Source: Planctomycetaceae bacterium
GTDB lineage: Bacteria > Planctomycetota > Planctomycetia > Pirellulales > Pirellulaceae
Assembly: GCA_024638965.1 (NCBI GenBank)
Contig: JAHEJI010000011.1
Location: forward strand, 1-54,221
Reading direction: 5' to 3'
DNA length: 54,221 nucleotides
In this document: positions 3,877 to 33,477 of the stretch, one piece after another
Layout of the letters: the number at the start of each line of letters is the position of its first letter
Position numbering within the stretch: the first letter of the stretch is position 1
Notes under the pieces: generated by a model
Seen by the model: only the letters and a program-made list of their open reading frames with translations
Databases searched by the model: none
Told to the model about the DNA's origin: nothing
Translations under genes and position numbers: made by a program

Positions 3877-3942
3877 CGCATCAAAAAAAAATGGGATCTT
3901 TGTTCTGGTTAATTCAAATCATCAAATGTTGTTGCTAAACGT

Positions 3943-30624: not shown

Positions 30625-31224
30625 CTAAAACGGCTGCCGGCCAGACATCGCGTCAGCCAATATCTCTTTGTTGGTAAACTCGAGGACGCTTCCCGTCGTT
30701 ATTCCACGCGCGAGTTTCGTCAAGTTGACGTCGTATTCAGACAACTGGTTTGAAATATGAAGTGCCGTTCCGTCGCCTTCCACCGTCGGATTAGTCGCCA
30801 TAATAACTTCGCTAAACTGCCCCGTACTAATACGTTCGACGAGTTTGTCAATCGTCAATTGATCAGGGCCAATGTTTTCAAGCGGAGCAATTCGGCCAAG
30901 CAACACGTGGTAAAGACCCCGATAGGTTCCTGATTGTTCGATCGCCATCAAATCACGAGGCTGTTGAACAACGCAAATTACGTCTTGTATGCGAGACGAA
31001 TCCAGGCAAATTGAACATTTTTCGCCTTCGGCCAGGTTGTAACATTCGGAACAGTAACGGACGTTTTCACGCACATTACGAATCGAGTCAGCAAGGGAAA
31101 ATGCTTCCGATTCGGGGATCCGCAAAATGTGGTAAGCCAAACGCTCAGCCGACTTGCGGCCAATTCCTGGCAGCCGCGATAGCTGCTCGATCATGTTCGT
31201 AACGGAATCGGCTAACTGGGACAT
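30625..31224 (-). CDS. recR: Recombination protein RecR
   Basis: RecR works with RecF/RecO to load RecA at gaps. The 199 residues show the helix-hairpin-helix start (LSRLPGIGRKSAERLAYHIL), a C4 zinc finger (CSECYNLAEGEKCSIC), and a Toprim domain with ICVVQQPRDLMAIEQSG and the ATNPTVEGDGTALHI segment. It is the last gene of the dnaX-ybaB-recR operon: it starts eight bases after the ybaB-like gene ends. Confidence 0.96.
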   Translation of the reverse strand: MSQLADSVTNMIEQLSRLPGIGRKSAERLAYHILRIPESEAFSLADSIRNVRENVRYCSECYNLAEGEKCSICLDSSRIQDVICVVQQPRDLMAIEQSGTYRGLYHVLLGRIAPLENIGPDQLTIDKLVERISTGQFSEVIMATNPTVEGDGTALHISNQLSEYDVNLTKLARGITTGSVLEFTNKEILADAMSGRQPF

Positions 31225-31232
31225 ATCAAAAA

Positions 31233-31655
31233 CTACCGCTCGGTGTCCAAACTGGGCGTCGTGTCAGTGTCGGTCTCCGGTGGTGGTTCTGGAACATCTG
31301 AAAACAGTTTCAACGCGTCATCAATGCCAGCCGGTAATGAAAAACCTCCCGCGACCGATTGCATGGATTCGACATGCAGCTGTTTTGCCTTGGCGGATGC
31401 TTCATTAATCGCCGCCGGCAACAGGTCGGCAACCATTTCAACGTCGCCTTTTTCTTTTAGCATCGGGTCGATGTCGATTTTCAGAATGTGCCCCAATCCA
31501 TTCGCCAGGACCGAGACCATTCCTCCTCCCGCGGAACCGCTGACTCGCTTGGCTTTGAGCTCTTCGGTTACCTTTTCCATCTTGGGGCCGATGTTCTGAG
31601 CTTCTTTCAATAGTGAAGCGATGTTTCCAATACCCTTAAACACGTTTTTCTCCAT
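31233..31655 (-). CDS. ybaB: YbaB/EbfC family nucleoid-associated protein
   Basis: The 140-residue protein has the family pattern FKGIGNIASLLKEAQNIGPKMEKVTEELKAKRV, a tweezer-forming helix pair, followed by GSAGGGMVSVLANGLGHILKIDIDPML and an acidic disordered tail. EbfC/YbaB binds DNA as a dimer and modulates gene expression. The ATG at 31655 fits the family start; a frame opening at 31718 overlaps dnaX and looks like read-through of the dnaX end. It lies between dnaX and recR, the widely conserved order. Confidence 0.93.
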   Translation of the reverse strand: MEKNVFKGIGNIASLLKEAQNIGPKMEKVTEELKAKRVSGSAGGGMVSVLANGLGHILKIDIDPMLKEKGDVEMVADLLPAAINEASAKAKQLHVESMQSVAGGFSLPAGIDDALKLFSDVPEPPPETDTDTTPSLDTER

Positions 31656-31695
31656 TTCGATAAAAAATATTGTCGGTACCCGGACTTGTTGGTAA

Positions 31696-33477
31696 CTATT
31701 TGGGATTTCGAAAGTCAATGATCTCCGCGTCGAACACCTCCATCGCCTTTTTGACCAATGGTTGATCGTGAAGTTGTCGCATCTGCTGCCGCCGACTCAT
31801 TTTCGGCTGCGGTGGGACTTGTTGTTTTGTTGTAGATGTCGAAACCAGAAAATCCACTCGCAATTGTTGCCCTGCAATCCGGGTAAGGGCCGACTCAAGC
31901 ATCGTTTTCCGATCGGGTCGGTTACACATATCTCTGTTATAGGAATCCTGCAAAGTCACGACCAGCTTGTTTGAGTCACATAATTCGAGTTTCTCGTAAT
32001 CGCGAGCCATGTCGGCTGTCATGTCCCCCAGCTCGGTGAGGGCCTTTTCCCAAATTGTTTTAACTTCCGCCTGATCAAGTGGAATGCCAGGCGGCGGTTC
32101 CGGACTGTTGGGCCCATCGACTGGGATATGTATTGGACTCGATTCGCCCGGATCCGAGACAGCTGCGTCGACGGGCTTTGCCGGATTCGGTTCGGGAACT
32201 TGTGCGGACGCCGTATTGGAACTCACGCGATAGGATTTGGAATCCTGGGTTGCTTTCGATTCAACTGCTTCGTTTTTTTTTGAACCCGATTTCGCCGACG
32301 CCGCTCCTGGCGATGCTGCTAATTTGGCTCCTGAACTCAGAACGGATACGAGCTCAGCTATCGATTCCATTTTTTCCAAGTTGCAGATTCGCACGATCGC
32401 CATTTCAAGCAGCGTTCTTGCGTGCACGCTGAACTGCATTCTTACGACAGCGCCGTCAATAATCTGCACGATCGTCAAAATGGTCTCCAAACCCAGTTTA
32501 TCGCTGAGTTTTTTGAGCATGTCCATATCGGCAGCGGTACAACTCAGTAACGTTTCCTCGTCGCAACCCACTCTGACTGCCATCATGTCGCGATAGAATC
32601 CGAGCAATTGCTGAGCGAGTTGCCCCGCATCAACGCCATCGGTCGCCGCATGATTAACCAACCCAAGACTTGTGGCCGCATCACATTCGGTCATTGCTTC
32701 AGCCAATTCAACGATTCGGCTAATGTCGGCCGTCCCCAAAAGCTGGTTAACTTCTTCGACCGAGATTTCTTTTCCACAGAATGAAAACAGCTGTTCAAGC
32801 AACGACTGACTGTCGCGCATCGAACCGTTGGCTCGACGAGCAAGTAAGGCAAGTGCGGCATCGTCCGCGTGCACCCCTTCATTCTCAGCGATTTCTCTTA
32901 GACGCTGTGAAATCTCGTCAGTTTGAACCGGAGAAAAATCGAATCGTTGACAACGCGAAAGAACCGTGATGGGGATCTTCTGTGGATCGGTTGTGCAAAA
33001 AATGAACTTCACATGTCCCGGTGGCTCTTCCAGAGTTTTGAGCAGAGCATTGAATGCTTGTGGCGTCAGCATATGAACTTCGTCGATGATATAGATTTTG
33101 AACCGCGATCGGCTCGGGCGCACGCCGGCGTTGGACCTCAGTTGTCGAATCTCATCGATTCCGCGGTTACTTGCTCCGTCGATCTCGAGAACGTCAACGT
33201 CTTCACCGAGCGAAACCGCCTCACAAATATCACATTTATTACATGGTTTGACGGTAGGGCCTTTTTCACAGTTCAAGCACTTCGCGAAAATTCTGGCCGA
33301 CGAGGTCTTTCCAACGCCCCGAGCACCCGTGAACAAATAAGCGTGTCCGACTCGATTCTGCTTGATTGCATTTGAAAGCGCCGTCGAGATATGCGTCTGT
33401 CCGACCAGATCGGAAAACACCTGGGGGCGATAACGACGGGCAACGACCGTGTATTGGTTGTTCGGTTCAGTATTCAT
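31696..33477 (-). CDS. dnaX: DNA polymerase III subunit tau/gamma
   Basis: The 593-residue protein is the clamp-loader ATPase. Visible are the P-loop GARGVGKTSSARIFAK, a C4 zinc module (CEKGPTVKPCNKCDIC), the Walker B IIDEVHML, sensor 1 FCTTDPQKIPITVLSRCQRF, and the domain III region to about residue 385. A low-complexity linker (near 390-475) leads to a tau-like C-terminal domain. The ATG at 33477 (MNTEPNNQYTVVARRYRPQ) is the best start. In the linker an A9 run at codons 399-402 could create the short gamma form (see the slippage site). Confidence 0.95.
   Translation of the reverse strand: MNTEPNNQYTVVARRYRPQVFSDLVGQTHISTALSNAIKQNRVGHAYLFTGARGVGKTSSARIFAKCLNCEKGPTVKPCNKCDICEAVSLGEDVDVLEIDGASNRGIDEIRQLRSNAGVRPSRSRFKIYIIDEVHMLTPQAFNALLKTLEEPPGHVKFIFCTTDPQKIPITVLSRCQRFDFSPVQTDEISQRLREIAENEGVHADDAALALLARRANGSMRDSQSLLEQLFSFCGKEISVEEVNQLLGTADISRIVELAEAMTECDAATSLGLVNHAATDGVDAGQLAQQLLGFYRDMMAVRVGCDEETLLSCTAADMDMLKKLSDKLGLETILTIVQIIDGAVVRMQFSVHARTLLEMAIVRICNLEKMESIAELVSVLSSGAKLAASPGAASAKSGSKKNEAVESKATQDSKSYRVSSNTASAQVPEPNPAKPVDAAVSDPGESSPIHIPVDGPNSPEPPPGIPLDQAEVKTIWEKALTELGDMTADMARDYEKLELCDSNKLVVTLQDSYNRDMCNRPDRKTMLESALTRIAGQQLRVDFLVSTSTTKQQVPPQPKMSRRQQMRQLHDQPLVKKAMEVFDAEIIDFRNPK
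32261..32281 (-). promoter_or_regulatory. A9 slippage/frameshift site within dnaX
   Basis: The minus strand has nine consecutive A residues (T run 32273-32281 on the plus strand), within codons TCA AAA AAA AAC of dnaX. A one-base backward slip gives AAA CGA AGC AGT TGA, so translation would stop at 32263-32261 and yield a product of about 405 residues, cut right behind the clamp-loader domains. Known dnaX genes use similar A-rich sites to make gamma. Confidence 0.6.

Follow-up and report, generated by a model that had tools for sequence, protein, structure and literature searches.

An A9 run in planctomycete dnaX as a probable programmed transcriptional slippage site for tau and gamma

The window, by which we mean the whole stretch of 54,221 nucleotides analysed here from contig JAHEJI010000011.1 of a Planctomycetaceae bacterium, carries on its minus strand a dnaX gene in which the tau subunit of DNA polymerase III is encoded as a single open reading frame. 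The encoded protein also shows matches to the E. coli gamma/tau structures, for example 1jr3 and 3glf. The features of this gene that bear on its predicted products are as follows.

31696-33477, minus strand: dnaX, DNA polymerase III tau, full length, 593 residues (TIGR02397, 454 bits; Pfam PF13177, PF22608 and PF12169)
32347-33456, minus strand: region common to tau and the predicted gamma, comprising the AAA+ module, lid and domain III (residues ~8-377; Pfam/NCBIfam matches)
32273-32281, minus strand: candidate A9 slippage run (T9 on the plus strand), codons 399-402 (from the letters themselves and conservation in relatives)
32261-32263, minus strand: TGA closing the -1 frame, giving a predicted gamma of 405 residues that ends in KKKRSS (A10 transcript)
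32223-32272, minus strand: +1-frame stretch of A8 and A11 transcripts, through its TGA, giving a predicted gamma of 417-418 residues (product lengths, codon count)
31699-32106, minus strand: C-terminal region of tau only, absent from the predicted gamma (residues ~458-593; conserved to residue 592 in the matches of relatives)

On the same strand, between 30625 and 33477, dnaX is succeeded by a ybaB-like open reading frame (31233-31718) and then by a recR-like one (30625-31224), both named by eye. The succession of dnaX, a ybaB-like and a recR-like gene is a common gene order in bacteria. A small SRP RNA gene adjoins dnaX in many relatives (L013, L034, L035, L037, L041, L121, L125 and L132), and none was found in the window between 33400 and 34000.

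The run lies in the coding-strand context TCA AAA AAA AAC GAA GCA GTT GAA, which reads AAA AAA AAA CGA AGC AGT TGA in the -1 frame. A sequence-only reading of this DNA had described nine A residues in the dnaX coding strand, a -1-frame TGA three codons past them and a product of about 405 residues against 593, with the cut falling just after the clamp-loader domains, and each of these statements was borne out. Specifically, the TGA occupies 32263-32261, a one-base insertion (the A10 transcript) yields a predicted 405 residues in comparison with the 593 of tau, and the run begins at codon 399, 22 codons beyond the end of Pfam clamp-loader domain III at residue 377. Counted from the start of the run, the -1 stop is reached after 6 codons and the +1 stop after 18, and the computed product of an A12 transcript is tau plus one Lys. 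The predicted short form retains the ATPase clamp-loader module and is without the tau-specific C-terminus.

Within a single genome the A9 run is only mildly unusual and is weak evidence taken alone, since exact A9 runs occur 86 times in the genome of the window; for this reason we rejected single-genome rarity as sufficient evidence. About one-third of the sampled genomic A9 runs lie in sense orientation in long open reading frames, and an A9 arises in the window's linker by chance in 3.3% of codon-order shuffles and 6% of synonymous shuffles. The window has just one further A9, at 3883-3891, which is apparently intergenic. Considered for the window's genome alone, this likelihood of 3-6% is what favors reading the run as a functionless accident of a Lys-rich linker that happens to use AAA codons.

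The picture differs across relatives, from which dnaX was gathered at the levels of genus, family, order, class and phylum. Conservation of the run in close relatives, which the earlier reading had named as a check, was found in every congener with a readable linker (A9 or A10 in 25/25). Overall, runs of A9 or longer are present in 25 of 26 congeners (the 26th being truncated where its contig stops), 18 of 22 members of the family, 18 of 25 of the order and 54 of 69 of the class. In the dnaX linkers of Planctomycetia, 116 of 142 hold A9 or A10, and the length of the longest A run is distributed bimodally: 26 genes have a run of seven or fewer, none has A8, 74 have A9, 42 have A10 and none has A11 or more. 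Runs of A9 or longer number 121 in 45 kb of linker sequence, as compared with zero in sense orientation in the 462 kb that make up the rest of the same genes and their flanks, and the mean GC content flanking the run is 63%. Many of the genomes are metagenome assemblies, in which homopolymer lengths can err, but such error is an improbable cause of a sharp peak at 9-10 that recurs across about 190 genomes, each assembled separately. As judged from these comparisons, the run is far beyond chance across relatives. A chance origin has next to no probability given this conservation, the bimodal lengths and the dual-frame stops described below, and KKK can persist through AAG codons where the run is lost (G117, G098 and G070); at the level of the two classes in which the run prevails, chance is on comparative evidence already refuted.

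With respect to those classes, the first holds the records of Gemmata, Schlesneria and Aporhodopirellula and is Planctomycetia, the window's gene standing beside that of Aporhodopirellula in the tree. The second, in which 40 of 48 dnaX genes carry the run (A9 in 6, A10 in 34), we take to be Phycisphaerae because a named Phycisphaerae record nests in it with a support of 98. Elsewhere in the phylum the run is infrequent: an even sample of lineages showed it in 7 of 61 complete genes, and the dnaX of the anammox organism Scalindua is without it. Parsimony on a FastTree phylogeny of DnaX N-termini, an approximate approach, places the run in the ancestor of the class and counts 16 changes within it. 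Approximately 18% of Planctomycetia are without the run, so gamma production by slippage would not be universal; in genes without it no other A run takes its place, and the homopolymers seen there are scattered stretches of 6-7 G or C.

Two variants within the phylum were also observed. In one group (L259, L240 and L235, from G117, G098 and G070, respectively) the run is lost while KKK is kept through AAG codons, as if slippage had been discarded and the protein left unchanged. The dnaX genes of one genus carry a tandem A9-TTG-A9/A10 (L179, L180, L245, L248 and L264, from G071, G067, G160, G124 and G106, respectively) with near -1-frame stops after each run, an arrangement that would amount to a doubled slippage site.

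In terms of what is conserved, the run of Planctomycetia is found in all three codon phases and encodes KKN, KKK, KKT, KKI or KKS, and these varied phases and peptides indicate conservation of the nucleotides rather than of a single peptide. The downstream sequence is likewise constrained. Against a null obtained by shuffling the downstream codons, the median distance from run to stop in Planctomycetia is 3 codons in both the -1 and the +1 frame, as compared with 14 and 23 codons in the null (Kolmogorov–Smirnov p 2e-33 and 4e-35, respectively; n = 115). Related sequences are non-independent, and thinning to less than 70% identity, which addresses kinship, left the enrichment in place (n = 43; p 4e-11 for -1 and 6e-14 for +1). 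In Phycisphaerae the medians are again 3 and 3, against 20 and 26 in the null (p 4e-16 and 3e-17; n = 35, unthinned). No such enrichment was seen at random linker positions (p ~0.7-1), in genes that lack the run or in other classes. The near +1 stop that is common in the genus is missing in the species of the window and in a sister that is 97% identical; the next one, at 18 codons, still precedes the tau C-terminus. Taken together, these comparisons show selection for the site as read from its sequence, namely for the run, for its length of 9-10 nucleotides and for stops in both alternative frames.

A trap of stops in both frames fits transcripts of varying length, whereas -1 ribosomal frameshifting needs a stop in one frame only. 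Programmed -1 frameshifting of the E. coli kind, in which gamma would be made by ribosomes slipping on A_AAA_AAA, does find that heptamer in an A9 run of any phase, together with a near -1 stop. It would not, however, select +1 stops, and the +1 enrichment equals that at -1. Seven A residues would suffice for it, not 9-10, yet A8 is the longest run in none of the linkers and A7 in only two. In 67 of 116 genes a C follows the run, in contrast to the most shift-prone form in E. coli, A_AAA_AAG (PMC5009743), which is absent from the window (TCA AAA AAA AAC) where A_AAA_AAA is present.

The stimulators expected of such a mechanism were also sought. In relatives, downstream folding gave a mean z of about 0 relative to codon-shuffled sequence, and in the window itself the sequence 3′ of the run folds no differently from the average of the shuffles (z -0.10 and 0.46). 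The power of this test is modest: the E. coli hairpin, used as a control, was missed in the 60-nt window, for which reason windows of 45 and 35 nt were added, and it reached its z of -2.57 in the 35-nt window only. Upstream Shine–Dalgarno-like motifs occur at background (7/43 and 4/35 versus 10-11%), and the window has none at about 10 nt upstream, where such a motif would be placed, but only an AGGAG 22 nt upstream. The Rfam family RF00382 has no match in the window's dnaX or, at its gathering threshold, in 18 planctomycete loci, in comparison with 96.8 bits for the E. coli dnaX control; because RF00382 is narrow, this negative counts little alone. The earlier statement that neither a Shine–Dalgarno-like stimulator nor a strong hairpin is apparent thus held for fold z-scores, motif counts and the family search alike, and with neither hairpin, Shine–Dalgarno motif nor RF00382 match, -1 ribosomal frameshifting is an unlikely source of gamma.

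A second ribosomal explanation is that ribosomes slide in either direction on the AAA Lys codons without stimulators, whether alone or alongside transcriptional slippage. Sliding of ribosomes on poly(A) lysine tracts is known and is usually reported for tracts longer than two or three AAA codons. Such sliding would account both for stops in the two frames and for the absent stimulators, but the narrow A9-A10 length and the precedent of Thermus point to the polymerase, and we give sliding only a slight chance.

A further line of evidence comes from relatives in which the layout of dnaX is reversed, so that the zero frame stops just after the run and encodes gamma, and the tau C-terminus follows in the -1 frame. 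This is the case at L033 (G009, of the same genus as the window), L317 (G172), L367 (G322) and L371 (G333). A fifth locus, L326 (G274, of the same family as G322), has the reversed layout by eye, although the C-terminal profile gave no score, and at L361 (G295) the +1 frame contains a C-terminus that weakly resembles that of tau. An indel introduced in assembly could explain the layout in G009, but such an error is less likely for G274 and G322, two species that share one arrangement. PMC3711429 regards shifts of differing direction in a single family as the sign of transcriptional realignment. At three other loci (L309 of G244, L324 of G207 and L322 of G228), dnaX ends at ~382-398 residues without an A run, and a tau-like C-terminus lies just 3′ in another frame or open reading frame; these are possibly split genes or the product of another recoding mechanism.

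The congener G009, with its two halves in different frames, together with the readiness of homopolymers to mutate, is also what could be said for a contingency tract, that is, for phase variation at the level of DNA in place of an expression device. In such a case the gain or loss of a single base would eliminate tau, which as a subunit of the replicase should be essential. The stops in both frames would be unneeded and the length would vary. Tau is in frame in almost all genomes. We regard a contingency tract as very improbable.

Overall, the A9 run is very probably a programmed transcriptional slippage site that would yield tau and gamma from one gene. The preference of the sequence-only reading for transcriptional slippage is supported by stop enrichment in both frames, by the absence of stimulators and by mirror-image genes that shift both ways. 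Under this mechanism, RNA polymerase would slip on the T9 template and generate dnaX mRNAs with varying numbers of A residues. Those with 9 or 9+3n would encode tau (593 residues), and a one- or two-base shift would lead to a nearby stop in either of the other frames and hence to a gamma of 405 or 417-418 residues that retains clamp-loader domains I-III but not the C-terminal portion of tau. From the sequence we infer slippage itself, a gamma protein and its proportion to tau. It is likely, with somewhat less assurance, that dnaX transcriptional slippage is ancient in the two planctomycete classes and selected on both run length and the two frames, that gamma is thus functionally required, and that which of tau and gamma is read in frame has changed several times, with shifts occurring both ways.

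The closest known system is dnaX of T. thermophilus (Larsen et al. 2000), described in PMC1088944 and PMC5009743 as having an A9 run, an in-frame tau, stops close by in the two other frames and a gamma made by polymerase slippage. The window shares with it a sense-strand run of at least A9 after the clamp-loader domains, tau in frame, stops in both other frames and a gamma, here predicted, that retains those domains, thereby showing both sequence features of the type; at the level of products, the Thermus type has mRNA heterogeneous in its number of A residues and gamma at ~1:1 with tau. In contrast to Thermus, Planctomycetota are another phylum and use both A9 and A10, and mRNA heterogeneity was demonstrated in Thermus, whereas the planctomycete site is known from sequence. 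The two-ORF form of dnaX, already known from GeneTack (PMC3711429), has an A7-A10 run and resembles the reversed genes of G009, G172, G274, G322 and G333; unlike it, the window and most planctomycetes have tau in frame and gamma from predicted slippage. E. coli dnaX (RF00382) gives the same products as are predicted here, with gamma about two-thirds of tau, but the window lacks A_AAA_AAG, a positioned Shine–Dalgarno motif, the stem-loop and a match to RF00382 and has stops in both frames. Caulobacter also obtains a short DnaX form from one gene, but by proteolysis of tau, at the protein level and without involvement of a slippage run (PMC5009743).

In light of these systems, the earlier suggestion of a plausible third case stands as regards slippage but not as regards its separateness: the site would belong to the Thermus kind, newly extended to a broad range of taxa in two planctomycete classes, and dnaX slippage on A7-A10 had already been proposed for other bacteria in PMC3711429. 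Full-text searching, which covered few subscription journals and did not take in the list of species supplementing the 2013 paper, turned up no description of slippage in a planctomycete dnaX.

The importance of gamma is a matter of long dispute; according to a review of 2012, most bacteria carry no signature of dnaX frameshifting and may not produce gamma (PMC3290774). Selection, as it appears from these genes, maintains a predicted gamma-making device across two classes of one phylum. Cultured species that carry the run, among them Gemmata sp. IIL30 and Aporhodopirellula aestuarii, are now indicated for testing what gamma does and whether RNA polymerases other than that of Thermus slip in this way. 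Slippage that shortens the product has been judged hard to detect by comparison (PMC1088944). Searches for frame transitions are blind to it, and the dual-stop test picks up such sites.

Beyond the phylum, the dnaX linker contains an A9 followed closely by stops in at least one of the two other frames at L075 (Verrucomicrobia), L082 (Ignavibacteria), L092 and L109 (Bacteroidetes) and L107 (Desulfobacteraceae), and the same device may operate in these other phyla.
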